From: Muribaculaceae bacterium | GTDB taxonomy: Bacteria; Bacteroidota; Bacteroidia; Bacteroidales; Muribaculaceae | Direction: 5' to 3' | DNA length: 37,265 nucleotides | Assembly: GCA_017935045.1 (NCBI GenBank) | Contig: JAGBIJ010000058.1 | Coordinates: forward strand, 1-37,265 | Shown here: positions 9,094 to 25,448 of the stretch, one piece after another | Layout of the letters: every line of letters begins with the position of its first letter | Numbering within the stretch: the stretch's first letter is position 1 | The notes under the pieces: generated by a model | Seen by the model: the letters and a program-made list of their open reading frames with translations, nothing else | What the model was told of the DNA's origin: nothing | Database searches by the model: none | Translations under genes and position numbers: made by a program

Positions 9094-10269
9094 ATGACAG
9101 AACACAATACTAAAAGCATAGCAATACTGGGCAGCACAGGCTCCATCGGAACACAGACGCTCGACATAGTGGAGGAATACCCGTCGCGTTTTCGTGTAGC
9201 CGTGCTTACGGCACGCAGCAACGTAGACCTGCTGGCAGCCCAGGCCCGGAAATTTCTGCCCCGCAAGGTGGTAATCGCTCGTGAAGAACTGCTGCCGCGC
9301 CTCCGCAGTCTGCTGGACGGACTCCCCATAGAGACAGCAGCCGGTTCCGCTGCGATAGAGGAGTGTGTGGCCCACGAAGACATAGATGTCGTAGTGACAG
9401 CCATGGTCGGATATTCCGGTCTGGCTCCTACCATCAATGCCATACGCCACGACAAGTGCATAGCCCTGGCCAACAAGGAGACACTGGTGGTGGCCGGAGA
9501 ACTGATAACGTCGCTGCTCCGCGGCAGCAAATCGCGCATCATACCGGTAGACAGCGAACATTCAGCCATCTTCCAGTGTCTGGAGGGAGAGGGCACCGAG
9601 CATGCCGCCAAGATTATCCTGACGGCCAGCGGAGGGCCGTTCCGCACTCTCAGCGCCGAGCAACTGCGCCACGTCAGCGTGGCCGACACCCTGCGGCACC
9701 CCAACTGGAATATGGGAGCCAAGGTCACGGTCGACTCTGCGTCGATGATGAACAAAGGGTTTGAAATGATCGAGGCTCACTGGCTGTTCGGGTGTCCGGC
9801 CCGCCAGATTGAAGTCGTGGTGCATCCGCAAAGTATAGTACACAGCATGGTGCAGTTTGAAGACGGCTCAATCAAGGCCCAGCTTGGAGTGCCGGACATG
9901 CATCTGCCCATCCGCTACGCCCTCGGCTATCCCGAGCGACTGCAGACCGGCCAGCCTCCGCTCAACCTGAGTCAGTACAGCAATCTTACTTTCGAGGCTC
10001 CGGACATGGAGAAATTTCCGCTGCTCGGCTATGCTTTCGATTGTATCGAGGCCGGCGGCAACGCTCCATGCGTGCTCAACGCCGCCAACGAAATAGCCGT
10101 AGCCGCGTTCCTGGCGGGCCGCATGCCTTTCTGGAAGATGCCACATCTGGTCCAGCGTACGCTGGAGGCCATACCTTACAGTCCGCATACCGACTACGGG
10201 ACCCTGGTGGAGACCAATGCCCGCGCCCGCGAGGCAGCGACAGAGCTGCTGCCGCTTTTTTCTGAGTGA
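9094..10269 (+). CDS. dxr: 1-deoxy-D-xylulose 5-phosphate reductoisomerase
   Basis: 391 residues, normal length. It catalyses the NADPH-dependent conversion of DXP to 2-C-methylerythritol 4-phosphate, the committed step of the MEP isoprenoid pathway, in the cytoplasm. The NADPH-binding loop GSTGSIG is at 13-19. Metal and substrate residues are in PVDSEHSAIFQ (D153, E155) and MNKGFEMIEAHWLF (about 219-232). The flexible-loop region LRHPNWNMG and the substrate motif SASMMNKG are intact. It lies 13 nt after the LytM gene and 89 nt before rseP. The dxr-rseP order recurs in many bacteria and links isoprenoid carrier supply with envelope maintenance. Confidence 0.97.
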   Translation: MTEHNTKSIAILGSTGSIGTQTLDIVEEYPSRFRVAVLTARSNVDLLAAQARKFLPRKVVIAREELLPRLRSLLDGLPIETAAGSAAIEECVAHEDIDVVVTAMVGYSGLAPTINAIRHDKCIALANKETLVVAGELITSLLRGSKSRIIPVDSEHSAIFQCLEGEGTEHAAKIILTASGGPFRTLSAEQLRHVSVADTLRHPNWNMGAKVTVDSASMMNKGFEMIEAHWLFGCPARQIEVVVHPQSIVHSMVQFEDGSIKAQLGVPDMHLPIRYALGYPERLQTGQPPLNLSQYSNLTFEAPDMEKFPLLGYAFDCIEAGGNAPCVLNAANEIAVAAFLAGRMPFWKMPHLVQRTLEAIPYSPHTDYGTLVETNARAREAATELLPLFSE

Positions 10270-15769: not shown

Positions 15770-16531
15770 ATGCGACTTCACACACGATTACTCTCATTAC
15801 TTCTGCTATCGGCAGCTCCCGTCTTCGCTTCCGCGGGCTCGCCGCAGGCAAAACCCGATCATATCTATCTCAAGTCTGGAGAGATGGTAATCGGCGTCAT
15901 TACCGACCAGATTCCGGGAGAATCAGTGACCGTGACGCTACCAGACGGATCCCTGCGTGTAATAAATATCGCCGAAATCAAGCGTACTGACCGCGAGCGC
16001 GACACCGGAGCCGCCAGCCATCGCCTCAACAAAGGCTACAAAGGCATCTACAGCTTCTCTTTCACAAAGGGCGGAGCCAAAGACCTGGCCAGCAATATCC
16101 GCAAACCCTCGTCCGACAACATAGAGCTGGCCGTTGTCCAGGGCTATCAGGTCAACCATTGGCTCTATGCCGGAGCCGGCGTGGCATGGCAGTTCTACTA
16201 CGGCGGTTACAGAGGCAATGAACGCTCTTTCTCCAATTTCCCGATTTTCGCCAATGTCAGAATCAGCCCCTTGCGCAATTATATCACACCGTTTCTTGAC
16301 CTCAGGGGCGGCGGATATGTCGGCAAGCTCCACGGCGCCTACTTCCGTCCATCCCTTGGCGTACGCTTCGGCATTACCCGCAAATGCGGATTCAGTTTCG
16401 CCATAGGATACACTGTGCAGACCATAAGCGGCGACCTCTGGCTCGACCGCGACTTCAAGAGCTTCGACCGCTATTTCAATCTCAAGACCAATCTGAGTGG
16501 TCTGACAATAGCAGCGACCGTTGACCTCTGA
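15770..16531 (+). CDS. Outer-membrane beta-barrel protein, paralogue 1 of 3
   Basis: 253 residues: a signal peptide (about 1-24), then a small N-terminal domain (about 28-75). That domain has the pattern IYLKSGEMVIGVITDQIPGE, a short beta strand, and INIAEIKRTDRER. The SH3/LSm-like YLKsGe..G.i..qiPge...DG..I.dIk.I pattern is widespread in exported Bacteroidetes proteins and its function is unknown to me. From about 90 to the C-terminus come amphipathic strands ending on aromatic residues, consistent with an eight-stranded outer-membrane barrel that ends IAATVDL. It is the most divergent of the three tandem paralogues. The first gene of its unit, it has a clear promoter. Confidence 0.65.
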   Translation: MRLHTRLLSLLLLSAAPVFASAGSPQAKPDHIYLKSGEMVIGVITDQIPGESVTVTLPDGSLRVINIAEIKRTDRERDTGAASHRLNKGYKGIYSFSFTKGGAKDLASNIRKPSSDNIELAVVQGYQVNHWLYAGAGVAWQFYYGGYRGNERSFSNFPIFANVRISPLRNYITPFLDLRGGGYVGKLHGAYFRPSLGVRFGITRKCGFSFAIGYTVQTISGDLWLDRDFKSFDRYFNLKTNLSGLTIAATVDL

Positions 16532-16568
16532 TATACTGAAAGATTTCTAACCAATCCATCAACTGATT

Positions 16569-17315
16569 ATGACAAAGTTATTCATTTCAATTATGCTCGC
16601 CGCCGGGGCGCTCGCTTGCCCCCTCGCCTGCGCCGCCGACAGCGACGGCAAGCCCGACAAGGTCTACCTCAAGTCGGGCGAAACAGTCACGGGCTATCTC
16701 CAGAGCCAGGTGCCCGGAGAGTCAATCACATACCTTACATCCGACGGCCAGACGCTGGTAATACCCGTAAGCAACATCAAGCGCATTGACCGCGAACGCC
16801 ACGCCGAATACAGTTCCCAGGGTCTGAAAAGCGGTTACAAAGGGATGTACAGTTTCTCGTTTACCGCTGGCACCAGCAAGGCAATCAAGAATTACAAGCC
16901 CAACAACCGTATAGAGCTGTCCACCACCCAGGGCTATCAGTTCAATCCCTATCTCTATGCCGGCATCGGCTTCGCCTGGCAATACTTCTATGCCGGTTAT
17001 CACTACAGCAATGACTCGTTCTCCCTGATTCCGGTATTCGCCGATGTGCGCTGGACTCCTGTAAATCATCGTTTCAGCCCCATCGTCGACTTCAAGGCTG
17101 GCGGCTTCTTCGGCAAAATGACCGGATGGTATCTGCAACCCTCGGCAGGTGTAAGAGTAGCCGTCAACAATAAATATGGTTTCGATCTGACCATAGGTTA
17201 CACCATACAGCGCATTACCGGAGATCCACTCTCGCCTCCGACCGCAAATTCATTCTATAAGAAAAACAAACCCAAACTCGACGGTGTAAATATCTGCATC
17301 GCCGTAGACATCTGA
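16569..17315 (+). CDS. Outer-membrane beta-barrel protein, paralogue 2 of 3
   Basis: 248 residues, closely similar to the next gene along its whole length. The signal peptide ends near CAADS. The small domain reads KVYLKSGETVTGYLQSQVPGE and then IPVSNIKRIDRERH, after which the protein continues into a barrel-like region (FNPYLYAGIGFAWQYFY, FADVRWTPVNHRFSPI, GKMTGWYLQPSAGVR) ending in ICIAVDI. The 37-nt gap to the previous gene and 49-nt gap to the next indicate one transcript. The barrel prediction rests on strand periodicity and the terminal hydrophobic strand. The substrate or role is unknown. Confidence 0.65.
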   Translation: MTKLFISIMLAAGALACPLACAADSDGKPDKVYLKSGETVTGYLQSQVPGESITYLTSDGQTLVIPVSNIKRIDRERHAEYSSQGLKSGYKGMYSFSFTAGTSKAIKNYKPNNRIELSTTQGYQFNPYLYAGIGFAWQYFYAGYHYSNDSFSLIPVFADVRWTPVNHRFSPIVDFKAGGFFGKMTGWYLQPSAGVRVAVNNKYGFDLTIGYTIQRITGDPLSPPTANSFYKKNKPKLDGVNICIAVDI

Positions 17316-17364
17316 TGTCATACGGAGACACACGAGCATCTAAGTCATATATTCCTTCTGCATC

Positions 17365-18120
17365 ATGTCAAAATTCATTATCACACCTCTGATTTTTTCC
17401 GCTGCGCTGATATCCTCGGTAGCGTCATTTGCCTCTGAGCCGCAGCCGGACACCTGCGGAAAACCAGAAAAAATCTATCTGAAGTCCGGCGAGACAGTCT
17501 CGGGATACCTCCAGAGCCAGATTCCAGGAGAATCAGTGACATACATTACCACCGACGGCCAGACGCTGGTAATACCCGTAAGCGACATCAAGCGCATAGA
17601 CCGCGACAGGCACAAGGAATATCGGCAGCAGGGACTGAAACAGGGCTATAAAGGTCTGTATGGCTTCTCTTTCACTGTCGCTACGGACAAAAACTGGATG
17701 GACTTCAATCCCAACAACAGAATTGAGCTTTCCACCACTCAGGGTTATCAGTTCAATCACTGCATCTATGCCGGCGCCGGAGTAGCCTGGCAATATTTCT
17801 ATGAGGGCTATGCTCTGACGGACTCGGCATTCTCGCTGATACCGGTCTTCGCACACGTACGCTGGACTCCCGTCGACCATCGCTTCAGCCCTATAGCGGA
17901 GCTAAAGGCTGGCGGATTCTTCGGCAAAATGTCGGGCTGGTACCTTCAGCCATCAATAGGAATAAGGGCAGCCATCAACGATAAATACGGTTTCGACCTG
18001 ACCATAGGCTACACCATACAGCGCATCACAGGCGACGTTTTCGTGCCTTACGACCCCGAATACCAAATTCATAAACCGAAACTGGACGGTGTGAATGTCT
18101 CCATCGCCATAGACATCTGA
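17365..18120 (+). CDS. Outer-membrane beta-barrel protein, paralogue 3 of 3
   Basis: 251 residues. The signal peptide is at about 1-24. It shares the small domain (KIYLKSGETVSGYLQSQIPGE, then IPVSDIKRIDRDRH) and the barrel region (ELSTTQGYQFN, GGFFGKMSGWYLQPSIGIR, YGFDLTIGYTIQRITGD) with paralogue 2. Long identical stretches extend into the DNA, for example the region encoding DGQTLVIPVS, which points to recent duplication. Variation concentrates in segments that would be loops (around KNWMDFNPN and EGYALTDSAF), as expected for surface-exposed loops. Only 6 nt separate its stop from the next gene. Confidence 0.65.
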   Translation: MSKFIITPLIFSAALISSVASFASEPQPDTCGKPEKIYLKSGETVSGYLQSQIPGESVTYITTDGQTLVIPVSDIKRIDRDRHKEYRQQGLKQGYKGLYGFSFTVATDKNWMDFNPNNRIELSTTQGYQFNHCIYAGAGVAWQYFYEGYALTDSAFSLIPVFAHVRWTPVDHRFSPIAELKAGGFFGKMSGWYLQPSIGIRAAINDKYGFDLTIGYTIQRITGDVFVPYDPEYQIHKPKLDGVNVSIAIDI

Positions 18121-18642: not shown

Positions 18643-21135
18643 TCATTCCAGCGCGCTCTCGACTACTTCCTGTATCTCCTCCGTGTGGCCGCCTCCACCG
18701 CCGCGACCGCCTCCGCTGTAGGCGCTGCCGCCGTCACACGGCGAATAGTCTGCCGGGAACTCAAATTTCAAATCCTGAGTATACGGCAGTTTCGGATCGG
18801 CATACAGCTTTTTCATAAACAGTCCGTAGACGGGCAGCGAAGCCTTGGCTCCCTGACCGTAAGCCATATTGTTGAAGTGTATGTATCGCTCCTCGCCGCC
18901 TATCCATACACCGGTTACCAGATTCGGAGTGAAGCCCATGAACCATGTATCGGAGTTGGAGTTGGTGGTACCGGTCTTACCGCCCATATCGGCAGAGATA
19001 TTATAACTGCCGCGCAGGGCTTTGGCCGTACCGTTGTTGATAACGTTCTGGAGCATATACACCATATTATAATATGCCGTCTCGCCTATTACCTCCGTAC
19101 GATGGGGTACAGCCGAGTATATCACGTTGCCCTTGTCGTCCTCGATGCGCGACACGATTACCGGAGTCGTGCGGATACCCTTGTTGGCAAATGCCGAGTA
19201 GGCGCCCACCAGCTCCCTGACGCTGACATCGTTGGGACCCAGACAGAGCGGCATAGTCGGCTCTATCCAGCCCGTCAGACCGAACAGACGCATTTTGTTG
19301 GCAAGGTTGGCCGGCAGCAGGTCTGCGGTAAGACGCGCTGAAATCCAGTTGTTGGACGTAGTAAGCGCCCACTTGAGGTCCACCATCTGTCCGGCGCGGC
19401 CACCCGTAGAGCTGCGCGGACTCCAGCCGCCATAAGTCGGACGGGCATTGAGTACACGCGAGCATGGATCGTAATCCTGCTCCATAGCCAGTGAGTATAG
19501 GAAAGGCTTGGCCGTCGAACCTATCTGTCGGCGTCCCTGGCTTGCCATGTCATACTGGAAATATGTGTAGTCGGGTCCTCCGATGTAAGCCTTGATGTAG
19601 CCGGTCTGCGGATCCATGGAGACCATACCTATGCGCAGTATGCTCTTCATATATATCAGGGAGTCCATGGGCGACATGCGTACCTGCTTGGAGCCGGGGC
19701 GTATCTTGCCGTTTTCCTTGACGTATGCGAATACCGTCATGTCGCGCGGAGTGTTGAACTCACGCAATATCTCGGCTTCGGATTTGCCTTCGGCTTTCAT
19801 GACGCGATAACGCTCACTCTGCTTGCGGGCCTGCTCCAGCAGACGCTTCTGACCGGCGGCATCAAGCTCCGAAGCATTATACGGGTTCTTGCCCTTCTCG
19901 GCATTGAAGGCAGGCTGGAGTACACCGCCCAGATGCTCGTAGACGGCTTCCTCGGCATACTGCTGCATGCGCGTGTCGATGGTCGTATAGATGCGCAGTC
20001 CGTCGTTGTTCAGGTCATACAGATCGCCATTAGGCTTAGGATTCTTCTGAATCCATCCGTAGAGGGGGTCTTCGGCCCAGTAGACAGAATCGGTATTATA
20101 GCGTCCCAGCGCCATCTTGTAGGAAGATTCGCTCTTATAGTCCTCGCGCTTGGGGCGCACGGGCTTCTCGGCCGTCATCATGCGTCTTACCTCCTCGCGC
20201 AGATAGGTGGCCATGCTCTCGGTGCGCACTACCTTGTGGTAATCCAGTCCCAAAGGCCGGGCCTTGGTAACCTCGGCCTCGGCTGCAGTCAGCATCCCGG
20301 CCTTGACCATCTGGTCAAGCACGGTATTGCGGCGGCCTATGGCGCGTTCAGGATAGCGCAGCGGGTTATAGTAGCTCGGATTTTTAAGCATGCCGACAAG
20401 CAACGCCGCCTCAGGCAATGTGAGCTGCGAGGGCTGCTTGTTGAAATATACCTGTGCGGCAGTCTTGATACCCACTGCGTTGTTGAGGAAATCAAAACGG
20501 TTGAGATACATCTTTATCAGCTCCTCCTTGGTATACACACGCTCAAGCTTGATGGCTATCATCCACTCCACAGGTTTCTGCAGCACTCGCTTCAGTCCTC
20601 TGTCGCCCCGACGCGAATAAAGTATCTTGGCCAGCTGCTGGGTTATGGTCGATGCGCCGCCGCTGCTCTTGTCGCCCATAAGCACCGTCTTGATACCCGT
20701 ACGGCCCAGCGCGCGGAAATCTATGCCGGAGTGGTCCATGAAGCGGACATCCTCGGTCGCTATCAGGGCGTCGATAACGTATGGAGAAATCTCCTTGTAG
20801 TCTACATTTTCGCGGTTGGCGCTCACTTCATAGTAACGGCCAAGCTCCGTCTTGCCGTCGGACGCATACAGTATGGACGCGAAATTGTCATGAGGGTCTT
20901 CCAGCTCGTCGATGGGAGGCATATAGCCTATGACGCCGTTATATATCAGCAGCAACAGCAGAAACATGATGAAGCCGGCCGAAAGAAAACTTATCCACAG
21001 CCACTTGACTATGCGGCGCGAACGCGAGGCCCGGCGCTCCTCGCCTGCAGGCTTTTCACGGCGGCGCTCCTCGGTACGGCGGTCATGCCATATATTGTCG
21101 CCGCCGCTGCGGCGTCTGTCATTATATGGTTTCAT
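18643..21135 (-). CDS. mrcA: Class A penicillin-binding protein (PBP1A-type)
   Basis: 830 residues, a bifunctional peptidoglycan synthase. A basic cytoplasmic tail (1-42) is followed by one transmembrane helix (about 43-68). The GT51 transglycosylase has its catalytic glutamate in EDVRF (E128) and the GGASTITQQLAK motif at about 159-170. The transpeptidase has the SxxK serine in STAK (S540), SNN at 594-596 and KTGT at 720-723. All catalytic motifs are intact. The C-terminus ends in a Gly-rich, acidic tail (SGGGRGGGGG then HTEEIQEVVESALE), a non-catalytic extension probably involved in contacts or localisation. It is monocistronic, with its own promoter at 21167-21197. Confidence 0.95.
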   Translation of the reverse strand: MKPYNDRRRSGGDNIWHDRRTEERRREKPAGEERRASRSRRIVKWLWISFLSAGFIMFLLLLLIYNGVIGYMPPIDELEDPHDNFASILYASDGKTELGRYYEVSANRENVDYKEISPYVIDALIATEDVRFMDHSGIDFRALGRTGIKTVLMGDKSSGGASTITQQLAKILYSRRGDRGLKRVLQKPVEWMIAIKLERVYTKEELIKMYLNRFDFLNNAVGIKTAAQVYFNKQPSQLTLPEAALLVGMLKNPSYYNPLRYPERAIGRRNTVLDQMVKAGMLTAAEAEVTKARPLGLDYHKVVRTESMATYLREEVRRMMTAEKPVRPKREDYKSESSYKMALGRYNTDSVYWAEDPLYGWIQKNPKPNGDLYDLNNDGLRIYTTIDTRMQQYAEEAVYEHLGGVLQPAFNAEKGKNPYNASELDAAGQKRLLEQARKQSERYRVMKAEGKSEAEILREFNTPRDMTVFAYVKENGKIRPGSKQVRMSPMDSLIYMKSILRIGMVSMDPQTGYIKAYIGGPDYTYFQYDMASQGRRQIGSTAKPFLYSLAMEQDYDPCSRVLNARPTYGGWSPRSSTGGRAGQMVDLKWALTTSNNWISARLTADLLPANLANKMRLFGLTGWIEPTMPLCLGPNDVSVRELVGAYSAFANKGIRTTPVIVSRIEDDKGNVIYSAVPHRTEVIGETAYYNMVYMLQNVINNGTAKALRGSYNISADMGGKTGTTNSNSDTWFMGFTPNLVTGVWIGGEERYIHFNNMAYGQGAKASLPVYGLFMKKLYADPKLPYTQDLKFEFPADYSPCDGGSAYSGGGRGGGGGHTEEIQEVVESALE

Positions 21136-21166: not shown

Positions 21167-21197
21167 CAAAGTTAACAAAATTTCCCGATTATGCAAA
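21167..21197 (-). promoter_or_regulatory. Promoter of the PBP1A gene
   Basis: On the minus strand TTTG (21194-21197), a 19-nt spacer and TAACTTTG (21167-21174) match the consensus exactly. Transcription would start near 21163, giving a leader of about 28 nt. Confidence 0.72.
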
Positions 21198-21307: not shown

Positions 21308-24300
21308 TTATTTCACGATTATCTTCTTGCCTTTGTATATGTATAGGCCGGGAGCCAGGCCACGTACCTGCCCGGCAGTGGCATCGCGGAGTACAATGAT
21401 ACCGGCGGCGTTGTAGACATCTCCTGTCGTGCCGGCGGTCTCGACCGCTGTCACGCCCGATCCCTCTTTCTGTACCTTTATGGTCTTGGTGTCTGTCATA
21501 CCGTAGTAGCCGGCTGTCAGCGTCAGCTCTACAGGCTGCTCGGAGCGGAGTGTGAGCTTATAGACATCATATTCCAGCGGCTCGACTATCAGGGCGTTGA
21601 AGTCAGAGCTGGCCACCGTATAGTCCACAAGGGCCTTGTTACCGTACGGGAGCGCAGTGATTGAACCCAGGTCAAGGGTATAGGTGCCGTCCTCGCCCAC
21701 AGTGATATCGGCGGCATCGATTACGGGAGCCTTATATCCGCACCATGCCGACATGGCCGGGAACCAATAATAGTCAGCAAGCACAACGGTCTTGTCATTC
21801 AGTATTTCACCGGTGGCGGGGTCTGCCCTGAGGATGCGGTTCGCACGATAATCGCCGGTCTCAGTGACAGTCAGCACTATCTCGCCGGTAACGGGGTCCA
21901 CATTCACTCCGGCGCCATAAATAGCAAGCGGGTGGCCGTCATTCTCGGGCAGGTTGATGAAATCCGCTTTAAACTCACCGTTGTCCAGGTCAAGCCGGGC
22001 TATCTGGCGCGCGCCTTCGCGGGTGGTATAGTATATCACATTATCTTTCAGGTCAGCGGCCAGGGTGGCGCCACGCCATGTGGTCCAGGGAGACGCCATA
22101 CGCGTGGCGACGCCTTCTGGCGCCTCTACTGCGAGCGGAGTGACGACGAGAGTCTCTGGGTCATATTTCACAAAGGGCTGAGAAGCGTCTGTAGTAGCGA
22201 ACCACAGAGAGCCGTCGGCGCTCACGAACGGAGCTGCGAGCGGGGCTTCCAGATCAAGTTGCCTTATCTGGTCGTCGGCAGGGTCGATTTCGATAAGATT
22301 CCAGTTCTTGGCTACGGCATACACCTTGGAGCGATACAGTATCATCTCGCCGGCGTTCAGCTTGACTGATTCGGTAATGTGCAGCTTCTCTCCAGCCGTC
22401 ATCAGATCCAGATCAACAGGGAAAATACCGTTGGTCGTCGAGAGATAGCCTTTGTTGGCGCCTGCTCCCACAAATGCGTGGGCCTGAAGGCCGGGAGCAA
22501 GGTCGGGAAGCGCGCCCGAATACATAAGCGTGGACTTGTCCAATGCTGTCAGCACGCTGCCGTGTATGCCGGCTATGTTGTCGCCGCTCTGCTTGCATAC
22601 GGCATACCATTTGTCGCCGTACTGGGTCAGATACTGCCCTGTTACGCCAAGCGCTTTGGCGGGATTGGCTGTAGCGAACAACCGCGTATTGACTGTGCCG
22701 TCAGCCCCGATATGATTTAACGAAGCGTTGTCATGGCCATACCATCCCTCGTTCAGAACCATATATCCGGTGTCGTAGTTGCCGCCCTGCGCGGGCACGA
22801 GCTTGAACGTAGCCTTGATTTCGGGCGCCTCGGCCTCCAGTCCGTCGCTATCGGTAGTCACTATGTATCCGGCGGGGATGCTGACACTGTATGTACCCTC
22901 TTCGGTAAGAGCCGTGTTGTCCGGAGCGAAAATCACGGCAGGATTGGCTATGGCGTGCTTGAGAGTGTAAGTATTGCCCTTGGTGTCTGTAATCACAGGT
23001 GTGCCGGCTTCCTCTCTGACAGCGGTTTTCTTGGGTTTCGGATTGAACGTCACTGTAAAATTGGCAAGTATCGCCACCGTCTCATCCTGCGCGGGAGCGG
23101 TCGTGAAGGCGTACTGCTGCGCTGCTTTGACGGTATAGACGGCAGTGATATCATCGGTGTTTGTCACAGTGGTTCCCGCCGTATTCACTCCGTCGAGCGA
23201 ACGGGCCGGTATGCGCAGTGTCCATTCTCCCTTGCCGGCCTGTGAGTCCGCGGGTATGGAGTAGACTATCTGTTTGTCGGAAACGGCCTTGGCCTGAAGA
23301 GTGATGGTCTGCTCGCCGCAAGTGAACGTAGCGTCGCCGGCCTCCTCGGAAAGCGATACAGACTCGATGGCGCCTGCGGCCGTGAGAGTGATGTCCGGCA
23401 GCGAGGTACCCACCGTACCGGCGGCCGGAGACAGAGTATAGTTGAAATTCAGAGCCTCATCAATAGTGAAACTGACACTGATGGCGCCATTCTTCACATT
23501 CTTGTCTTCAAGCAGAACGAACGCGCCAGCCGGAATGAAGACGGTGTAGCGGCCTGCGGCGCGGAATGTGTCAAAACCACCGCCCCCTTCTTCCATGCTG
23601 AAATATATTATGGCAGTCCTCTGTCTGGACAGCATCACGTTAGAAGCGTGATATACCGTCTCATCTTCCTCCCGGACCAGAGTCACGCCGGAGACATCTA
23701 TAGGCCAGTCCAGGCCCTCGCCGCTTTCAGGGAAAGTAATGGAGAATTGCTTCAGTTCGCCTATGGCCTGACCGGCAGCCGGATCGGTGGTATAGGTCTC
23801 TAATGCGGCGCTCAGATCTCTCTTTATGGTATATGTGGCTGTTATTTCCGGCGAAAGATTGTTTTCATTTCCGTTGTCCGAAAACGCGCCCTCTTTCATC
23901 GTGACGGTATATGTACCAGGGGCTGTAAACTCCAGTGCGCCGGTATCGCTGGTGCCGAAGCGTATCTGCGCTGTGCGGTACGGAGAGGGCATTGTGAGCG
24001 AATATACCGGATATACGGTCTCACTGTTATCCGGGGCTGTGTACGTGAGCGAGATAAGCTCATTTCTGGCTGGATAGTTCAGACCGCTTGCAGCGTTTTC
24101 AAATGTCACATTGACTGCGGAGAGACTCTCCACTTCTCCGTCAGCCGGGCTGAGCGCATAGCTCTCAAGCGGATTGCCCTGCGGGGCGGCTATCACATAT
24201 TGCGCCTTAATCAGAGCGTTCTCCTGATTGGCGGCGAAAGTCTCTTTGAAAGAGCCGGCCGGGATGGTCAGCGTATATGTGCCGACAGCGGTAACGGTCA

Positions 24301-24952
24301 CGGGGGCCTCGCCGGCGGCGGTGCCGAAGTGCAGCGTGGCGTCGCTGCCTGCCGCATAGTCTGTCTTGACCACCACATACGAGAGGCCATTGTCGCCGAT
24401 CAGCGTTATGCCGCCGGTCTCCGGCATGTCTATGCCCATTATGCCGGTATCGGGAAAATCAATCTTGACCGAAGCTATCTCGCTGACCTCGCCGGCAGCA
24501 GGGGTAAGCGTATAGTTGGTCAGATGGTTGGGTGCCGCGCCTTTTATCGTATAGGTGGCCTTGATTTCGTCATTGGTCTTTGCCGGAGTCGAGAAATACT
24601 GCTTGAAGGCTCCGGCAGGAATAGTCAGAGTATATGACCCCGGGTCCGTAATGGTCACAGGTTCCTGGCCGGCGGCCGGGGCAAAGTGCAGCGTGGCGTC
24701 GCTGCCTGCCGCATAGTCTGTCTTGACTACCACATACGAGAGGCCGTTGTCTCCGGTCAGCGTTATGCCGTCGGTCTCAGGCTTGTCTATGCCCCAGAAT
24801 CCGGTACCCGGAAACTCGATTTTTATCGAGGCAATCTCACTGACGTCGCCCTGAGCCGGAGTAAGCGTGTACTCGCCTATGGAGCCGCTCTCCAGCGCCC
24901 GCAGCAGCGGACACGCCAGCATAAGAATCAATAAGGATAAAAAGTGTCTCAT
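21308..24952 (-). CDS. Riboswitch-controlled Ig-repeat / DUF5074 beta-propeller surface protein with T9SS sorting domain
   Basis: 1214 residues. A signal peptide (1 to about 20) is followed by about six Ig-like modules of 105-120 residues (about 26-138, 145-256, 264-378, 384-499, 503-609, 613-720). They repeat the pattern Y.L.PA.G.V, G.YT.TIPAGAF and I.A.YTIK. Residues about 728-1080 form a DUF5074/YncE-like beta-propeller (VLNEGWYGHDNASLNHI, TGQYLTQYGDKWYAV, GYLSTTNGIFPVDL). Another all-beta module and a T9SS type-A sorting domain (about 1170-1214, VYNAAGIIVLRD, LAPGLYIYKGKKIIVK) follow. The LMLAC stretch in the signal region could be a poor lipobox, but the T9SS end argues for T9SS attachment. 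The cobalamin riboswitch upstream, and the B12-binding propellers (BtuG type) known in Bacteroidetes, suggest surface capture of cobalamin; this is inference. No TonB receptor adjoins it. Confidence 0.8.
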   Translation of the reverse strand: MRHFLSLLILMLACPLLRALESGSIGEYTLTPAQGDVSEIASIKIEFPGTGFWGIDKPETDGITLTGDNGLSYVVVKTDYAAGSDATLHFAPAAGQEPVTITDPGSYTLTIPAGAFKQYFSTPAKTNDEIKATYTIKGAAPNHLTNYTLTPAAGEVSEIASVKIDFPDTGIMGIDMPETGGITLIGDNGLSYVVVKTDYAAGSDATLHFGTAAGEAPVTVTAVGTYTLTIPAGSFKETFAANQENALIKAQYVIAAPQGNPLESYALSPADGEVESLSAVNVTFENAASGLNYPARNELISLTYTAPDNSETVYPVYSLTMPSPYRTAQIRFGTSDTGALEFTAPGTYTVTMKEGAFSDNGNENNLSPEITATYTIKRDLSAALETYTTDPAAGQAIGELKQFSITFPESGEGLDWPIDVSGVTLVREEDETVYHASNVMLSRQRTAIIYFSMEEGGGGFDTFRAAGRYTVFIPAGAFVLLEDKNVKNGAISVSFTIDEALNFNYTLSPAAGTVGTSLPDITLTAAGAIESVSLSEEAGDATFTCGEQTITLQAKAVSDKQIVYSIPADSQAGKGEWTLRIPARSLDGVNTAGTTVTNTDDITAVYTVKAAQQYAFTTAPAQDETVAILANFTVTFNPKPKKTAVREEAGTPVITDTKGNTYTLKHAIANPAVIFAPDNTALTEEGTYSVSIPAGYIVTTDSDGLEAEAPEIKATFKLVPAQGGNYDTGYMVLNEGWYGHDNASLNHIGADGTVNTRLFATANPAKALGVTGQYLTQYGDKWYAVCKQSGDNIAGIHGSVLTALDKSTLMYSGALPDLAPGLQAHAFVGAGANKGYLSTTNGIFPVDLDLMTAGEKLHITESVKLNAGEMILYRSKVYAVAKNWNLIEIDPADDQIRQLDLEAPLAAPFVSADGSLWFATTDASQPFVKYDPETLVVTPLAVEAPEGVATRMASPWTTWRGATLAADLKDNVIYYTTREGARQIARLDLDNGEFKADFINLPENDGHPLAIYGAGVNVDPVTGEIVLTVTETGDYRANRILRADPATGEILNDKTVVLADYYWFPAMSAWCGYKAPVIDAADITVGEDGTYTLDLGSITALPYGNKALVDYTVASSDFNALIVEPLEYDVYKLTLRSEQPVELTLTAGYYGMTDTKTIKVQKEGSGVTAVETAGTTGDVYNAAGIIVLRDATAGQVRGLAPGLYIYKGKKIIVK
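24300..24790 (-). repeat. Near-identical segments of Ig modules 1 and 2 (357-bp offset)
   Basis: The region around 24327-24430 and the region around 24684-24787 encode the shared segment LSYVVVKTDYAAGSDATLHF. They are almost identical in DNA, offset by 357 bp (119 codons). The other four modules have diverged much further. Confidence 0.8.
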
Positions 24953-25084
24953 CTATAATAATTTAAATTAACCTTTTCATTGAATCAGGCCTGATGACAA
25001 GACACTTATGGTGCGTACGCAGACATACACATACGGACGATGCCGGCAGTTATGACGACAGCCGGATGCCTGCGGGCGAGCCAC

Positions 25085-25340
25085 GACTGTCTTCCCAGTG
25101 AGCCGTGAGTCTGCGCTGCAGGCAGGTCTTCTGACTTATCTCCATCGGGTGCCGACCCTCCTTCCCGCAAGATTCAGAGCCCTTGCAGTGGATATGGGCA
25201 GGTCCTTAAATGGCGGAGAAACACAGCAGCGGGTCTGTCCGGGATTCGCACCCGGTTCCCTGGAACGCTCCCGTGGGAACGCTCCGGCGCGATGCCTCTC
25301 CTGCAACGCATCTGTCGGGAAGCAGTGTCGCCGACAGCGC
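25085..25340 (-). ncRNA. Cobalamin (vitamin B12) riboswitch
   Basis: On the minus strand the conserved core appears in the correct order. GGGAACCGGGTGCGAATCCC with the following GACAGACCCGCTGCTGT spans 25222-25260. Next come CCACTG, then GGGAAGG, and finally the B12 box AAGTCAGAAGACCTGCC at 25121-25137. These are the hallmark elements of the cobalamin riboswitch. The 5' edge follows a -7-like box at 25343-25350. The remaining leader down to the ATG at 24952 (about 130 nt) would hold the kissing-loop partner and expression platform. I see no clear terminator with a U tract there, so translational control is more likely. Adenosylcobalamin binding should switch off the DUF5074 gene. Confidence 0.93.
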
Positions 25341-25342
25341 CG

Positions 25343-25350
25343 CAAAATTA
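25343..25350 (-). promoter_or_regulatory. -7 element before the cobalamin riboswitch
   Basis: TAATTTTG on the minus strand matches the consensus -7 box and lies directly before the aptamer. No good TTTG was found at the matching -33 position. Confidence 0.45.
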
Positions 25351-25383: not shown

Positions 25384-25426
25384 CAAAAAAATCACGATGG
25401 GCCGGACCCGTCGGTCCGACCCATCG
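25384..25426 (-). terminator. Rho-independent terminator of rpmE2
   Basis: CGATGGG (25395-25401) pairs with CCCATCG (25420-25426) around an inner CGGACC/GGTCCG stem, with one mismatch. On the minus strand a run of seven T residues (25384-25390) follows shortly after. Confidence 0.9.
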
Positions 25427-25448
25427 CATTGAGCCTGAAGGCAGGCTG

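Follow-up and report, generated by a model that had tools for sequence, protein, structure and literature searches.

A cobalamin riboswitch precedes a single gene for a stalked BtuK-type propeller protein in a Muribaculaceae genome

What does a cobalamin riboswitch control when it stands apart from the genes for vitamin B12 transport? We addressed this question for a 37,265-nucleotide (nt) stretch of DNA from a Muribaculaceae bacterium (assembly GCA_017935045.1, contig JAGBIJ010000058.1), called the window below. This stretch corresponds to contig C12 in a 2.22-Mb, 62-contig assembly that is 89.9% complete. A first-pass annotation, made from the sequence alone, had proposed that a riboswitch here governs one giant surface protein with an immunoglobulin (Ig)-like stalk, a DUF5074/YncE-like propeller compared with BtuG, and a sorting domain of the type IX secretion system (T9SS). 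We found that the riboswitch and the lone, stalked propeller protein hold up, that the propeller is not a plain BtuG, and that the tail is of the sorting kind although curated T9SS models do not accept it.

The Rfam cobalamin model RF00174 matched positions 25104-25314 of the minus strand over its full length (model positions 1-189) with 73.6 bits (gathering score 31.5, E 1.8e-16). This was the only Rfam match at the gathering threshold within the window, and it encloses both the core (25222-25260) and the B12 box (25121-25137) proposed earlier. Behind the aptamer, a hairpin with an 8-bp stem and a 12-nt loop (25081-25108, minus strand) may form part of the expression platform. We compared 14 leaders: that of the window, 12 that precede DUF5074 genes and one (L060) that precedes a btuB gene. 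A hairpin occupied the equivalent position in all 14, and the letters of its stem differed between leaders. The mean stem measured 6.64 bp versus 4.90 bp in shuffles, where the largest of 2000 means was 6.36 bp; the anchor motif for this comparison was picked by hand after viewing the sequences. Folding of the whole post-aptamer region was not clearly better than that of shuffles (z -1.34). The hairpin comparison favors a working expression platform without proving it.

The riboswitch leads into a single-gene transcription unit. Its gene (21308-24952, minus strand) codes for 1214 amino acids (aa) from an ATG start, as first annotated. A -7 type promoter element, TAATTTTGC, lies ahead of the riboswitch (25342-25350, minus strand), and a perfect TTTG element is lacking at the customary spacing from it. 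Downstream of the gene lies pbp1A (18643-21135), which codes for a class A penicillin-binding protein and has its own promoter, a perfect TTTG-N-TANNTTTG match (21167-21197, minus strand). We take this pattern to be the Bacteroidetes promoter form, and it occurs five times in the window versus 0.34 times expected in shuffles. pbp1A therefore probably lies outside the riboswitch unit, and we rejected it as a member. Upstream of the riboswitch, the gene for ribosomal protein L31 (25449-25703, minus strand; named by eye) closes with a 16-pair terminator (25393-25428, minus strand), which sets it apart from the riboswitch transcript. The earlier claim that the riboswitch can control only one gene is borne out by these boundaries.

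The encoded protein consists of a stalk, a propeller and a tail, all read from the minus strand. By eye, it starts with a signal peptide at approximately residues 1-19 (24896-24952) that has no usual lipobox: Cys14 is preceded by M-L-A, and this Cys is missing from several homologs. On this basis we rejected a lipoprotein identity, in line with the original proposal. Six Ig-like beta-sandwich modules of 109-121 aa each (borders by eye) make up the stalk at approximately residues 27-726 (22775-24874), where about six had been predicted. Modules 1 and 2 are identical at 80 of 117 aligned residues (score 379), whereas the remaining pairs score at most 90; their likeness points to a recent duplication. 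The propeller spans residues 728-1075 (21728-22771), with the predicted DUF5074 domain matching at residues 729-1068 (E 1.5e-62). Behind it stand a seventh Ig-like module at approximately residues 1076-1168 (21449-21727) and a C-terminal sorting-type tail at approximately residues 1169-1214 (21311-21448). The AlphaFold model of the mature protein shows modules that are nearly all beta (mean predicted local distance difference test score, pLDDT, 85.2; predicted template modeling score, pTM, 0.53), and because of this pTM the mutual placement of the domains is unsure. The propeller modeled alone is confident (pLDDT 90.6, pTM 0.90).

We asked which known propeller this domain most resembles. BtuK1 of Bacteroides thetaiotaomicron (BT_1486, PDB 9s6c) was the best match by both sequence and fold, and is the closest solved structure. 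The DUF5074 score was 212 bits in the 1214-aa protein and 326 bits in BtuK1. The propeller is also homologous to BtuG (hhalign probability 99.7, E 3.8e-26), which upholds that side of the earlier comparison with BtuG; BtuK1 is closer by sequence and fold, and plain BtuG was rejected as its identity. Since no lipobox was seen, we file the domain as a BtuK-type propeller and not the protein as a BtuK lipoprotein. In our trees, the window fell within a 17-row group (support 89/98) with the 15 close loci and L038 among its members, and two other groups, apart from this one, hold the pair of DUF5074 proteins from L060. The position of BtuK1 did not resolve in these trees.

Kinship to BtuK1 bears on whether the propeller would hold B12. 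According to the accessible part of PMC12751083, BtuK1 binds B12 with high affinity and BtuK2 does not. The window protein could resemble BtuK2 in this respect and, under B12 control, play a structural or partner role in the uptake system. The propeller family profile matched BtuK1 at 5e-40, together with BtuG entries, and did not list BtuK2 at E<=10; the fold score from VIA-align, run against solved structures, placed BtuK1 clearly above BtuK2. With both measures pointing to BtuK1, we think a non-binder unlikely. Propellers bind many ligands, and by eye a similar stalk begins another tailed protein of this genome (L076), so the ligand might not be a corrinoid at all but, for example, a protein partner or a glycan, with B12 merely timing expression. 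This would be hard to reconcile with the repeated linkage of such genes to riboswitches and btu genes described below. In addition, each of the 13 top-ranked solved structures belongs to a B12 uptake protein or locus, with the non-binder BtuK2 among them (gene names from the accessible parts of PMC12751083 and PMC6143338). A ligand other than a corrinoid is accordingly very improbable in our judgment.

We then considered how the protein might leave the cell. The first-pass annotation had assigned a T9SS sorting domain, and curated models failed to recognize one. Por_Secre_tail (PF18962) did not match the 1214-aa protein even at E 10, and TIGR04183 matched 6 of 19 homologs at E<=1 (best 0.02), with the window protein not among them. 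The kind of tail was nevertheless judged rightly, as it is common to other proteins of this genome. With a profile built from 15 homolog tails, 25 sites matched across the genome at E<=1, counting the tail of the query itself. The 13 best matches beyond the query (E<=0.004) each stand no more than 15 residues from a stop codon. By eye, 11 of these 13 frames have a signal-peptide-like start; one of the remaining two begins at a contig end, and the other was not extended to its start. A further match (E 0.30), on contig C43, overlaps a match to Por_Secre_tail that scores under the cut-off of this model. The genome encodes the SprA/Sov translocon (2709 bits, cut-off 200). No C25-type sortase was found in this incomplete assembly, which is one of two misses in a genus sample where 19 of 21 genomes, and 7 of 7 good ones, have it.

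T9SS cargo with a tail may stay on the cell or be released, and no lipid anchor was seen here. If the protein were released to the surroundings or onto vesicles, it might act as a shared or returning carrier of B12, similar to a siderophore, and not as a cell-bound antenna. The long stalk would fit an attached protein best. The accessible part of PMC12751083 describes BtuJ of B. thetaiotaomicron as acting on vesicles; in that of PMC6143338, cells producing BtuG2, a lipoprotein, gave no rescue of a btuG2 mutant in co-culture. Weighing these points, we find a released carrier rather less likely than an attached catcher.

The same pairing of riboswitch and gene occurs in related genomes, as the first-pass annotation had suggested checking. 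A large protein search (E<=0.001, scoring the 8000 candidates with the most shared words) found at least 22 proteins, the window's own among them. Four homologs of 1208-1209 aa are 69-71% identical across the part searched and 68-70% identical from end to end. Module number is variable: the stalk is shorter in some relatives, proteins of 976-997 aa. Relatives of the window propeller are present in 201 of 397 genomes. In a sample of the family, 117 of 119 genomes contain a cobalamin riboswitch and 113 of 119 contain a DUF5074 match, weak BtuG-type matches counted in. We counted linkage in 26 genomes (25 common to the DUF5074 and riboswitch result sets, plus this one), which were not picked blind, using DUF5074 matches of at least 150 bits. 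For 45 of the 48 matches listed, a same-strand riboswitch lies upstream within 11.9 kb; the distance is 4.7-11.9 kb for 35 of them and 2.6 kb or less for 10.

We examined the closest loci individually. The riboswitch stands directly upstream of the DUF5074 gene in 10 of the 15 closest loci (L041-L055), and we therefore rejected the idea that the pair is unique to the window. Two of the 15 (L042 and L049) run past a contig end, and no riboswitch was found in L046, L047 or L050, the last being covered by the genome scan only. The DUF5074 gene of L047 stands second, behind another gene at the contig end. Among L041-L060, 7 of 20 loci have a BtuH-type neighbor (L043, L048, L054, L055, L058, L059 and L060), with BtuG in five of these seven and a BtuB-like receptor in four. 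L060 has a full operon in the order riboswitch, btuB, btuG, btuH, a 321-aa tailed protein and DUF5074 proteins of 914 aa and 457 aa. No btu gene was seen in the other 13 of the 20 loci. In eight of these 13 (L041, L044, L045, L051, L052, L053, L056 and L057), a riboswitch precedes the DUF5074 gene, and the isolated pair seen in the window is thus a recurring arrangement.

Some of these loci have features of their own. In L044 (6633-6970) and L045 (11801-12126), from the same genus, the riboswitch immediately ahead of the DUF5074 gene is unusually long and weak (338 nt and 36.7 bits in L044, 326 nt and 38.5 bits in L045); the genome scan missed both, and cmscan found them. L046 has a match to the Bacteroidetes FopS small RNA (9508-9579, 78.5 bits) near its DUF5074 gene.

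We searched the remainder of the genome for its B12 system. It holds three cobalamin riboswitches: that of the window, one on contig C4 and one on contig C59. The C4 riboswitch precedes a lone gene for a BtuH-type protein of 392 aa (L004, 7058-8236), which matched B12-bound BtuH2 (7biz) at 6.1e-45 and the H part of BtuG1 (8blw_B) at 3.5e-72; its sorting-tail match is weak (E 0.03-0.04) and under the cut-offs. The C59 riboswitch precedes a gene for a 2301-aa protein (L005, 2479-9384) with a BtuJ-type DUF4465 domain (8.1e-53; 9hmu 1.1e-22) and an accepted Por_Secre_tail match. By eye, the alignment places a tryptophan where 9hmu has a tyrosine, near the tyrosine that is a hallmark of the DUF4465 family (PMC12751083). 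btuB and btuG adjoin on contig C2 (L010, 7578-10828; BtuB to 8blw_A at 9.2e-123, BtuG to 8blw_B at 3.9e-40). The neighbors in the window are pbp1A on one side and L31/tilS on the other, in keeping with the earlier placement of the gene away from a btuB operon. All btuB-like receptors of the genome are under the curated cut-off of TIGR01779, and no B12-linked neighbors were recognized by eye for the second-best one, on contig C19. A sensitive scan of 12 kb around btuB-btuG found no cobalamin riboswitch. Operon 4 of B. thetaiotaomicron has no recognizable riboswitch and is yet regulated like the other operons in the accessible part of PMC12751083; the lack of a match therefore does not equal a lack of control.

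The btuB-btuG, btuH-, btuJ- and btuK-type genes are scattered here, whereas several of them stand together in some relatives, and the riboswitch-gene pair could be a decaying remnant of a btu operon that was broken up. An intact frame of 1214 codons, four homologs of similar length at 68-70% identity, a riboswitch well over its cut-off and the retained -7 element and hairpin make decay extremely unlikely. The B12 regulon may have been rewired in this Muribaculaceae lineage, with riboswitches placed on three scattered, tailed and probably T9SS-exported catchers of the BtuK, BtuH and BtuJ types and not on btuB-btuG. Two of these three catchers are very long, and btuB-btuG has no detected riboswitch; we offer rewiring as a tentative possibility, short of an expectation. 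If it is true, B12 shortage would be answered by more and longer-reaching catchers and not by more transporter.

For the window itself, we consider the most economical account, and the probable one, to be a B12-repressed, stalked BtuK-type catcher that is exported by the T9SS and feeds BtuG-BtuB. When cobalamin is scarce, the riboswitch would permit synthesis of the 1214-residue protein, and cobalamin bound to the aptamer would turn expression off. After export by the T9SS, the six Ig-like modules would keep the BtuK1-type propeller at a distance from the cell surface, where it would capture B12 or related corrinoids. The captured corrinoid would then pass to the BtuG-BtuB transporter encoded elsewhere, either directly or through a BtuH-type protein. 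Gut Bacteroidota compete for B12 by means of surface proteins, which in the accessible parts of the literature have been studied as Bacteroides lipoproteins. If the catcher model is true, another gut family has put the same B12-binding domains on long stalks, with another export route and one-by-one regulation. The BtuK-, BtuH- and BtuJ-type set of this single genome would then allow one to ask if capture and transport can be separately regulated.

Elsewhere in the window, three tandem paralogous genes (15770-18120, plus strand) code for proteins of approximately 250 aa with signal-peptide-like starts, 43-67% mutual identity and no Pfam match. A 784-aa BspA-type leucine-rich repeat protein is encoded at 256-2610 on the minus strand.

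We compared this arrangement with known systems. BtuK1 shares the DUF5074 propeller and cobalamin-riboswitch control. It is, however, a lipoprotein with a solved chain of 339 residues, compared with a six-module stalk and a sorting-type tail here, and its gene lies in an operon with btuK2, btuH1, btuB1, btuGH and btuJ1, compared with a single-gene unit. The BtuG proteins (BtuG1, BtuG2 and BtuG3) have a homologous propeller and belong to the riboswitch regulon, but BtuG caps BtuB as a lipoprotein lid and is encoded beside btuB; here a separate BtuG1-type gene fills that place on C2. BtuH2 (PDB 7biz) likewise carries Ig-like (PKD) modules before a B12-binding end domain (accessible part of PMC8941943). 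It differs in its B12 domain, in being a lipoprotein and in having three modules, and this genome encodes a BtuH-type protein of its own, the 392-aa one on C4. The BtuJ/DUF4465 proteins (9fct, 9i2l and 9hmu) are also extracellular B12 binders, and the C-terminal motif IPR026444 occurs on 229 of 824 DUF4465 proteins (PMC12751083, accessible part). They have a jelly-roll domain and no propeller, and here this domain is on the 2301-aa protein of C59. We found no description of a stalked, tailed, single-gene riboswitch arrangement in the open-license literature. The first-pass annotation had called this a new architecture for B12 scavenging, a claim that stands for the combination and not for the pair, which is not unique, or for the kind of system. 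Because a BtuH2 end domain behind Ig-like modules and sorting motifs on DUF4465 proteins have already been published, the kind of system was already known; what is new is the combination of these elements and their scattering across the genome.

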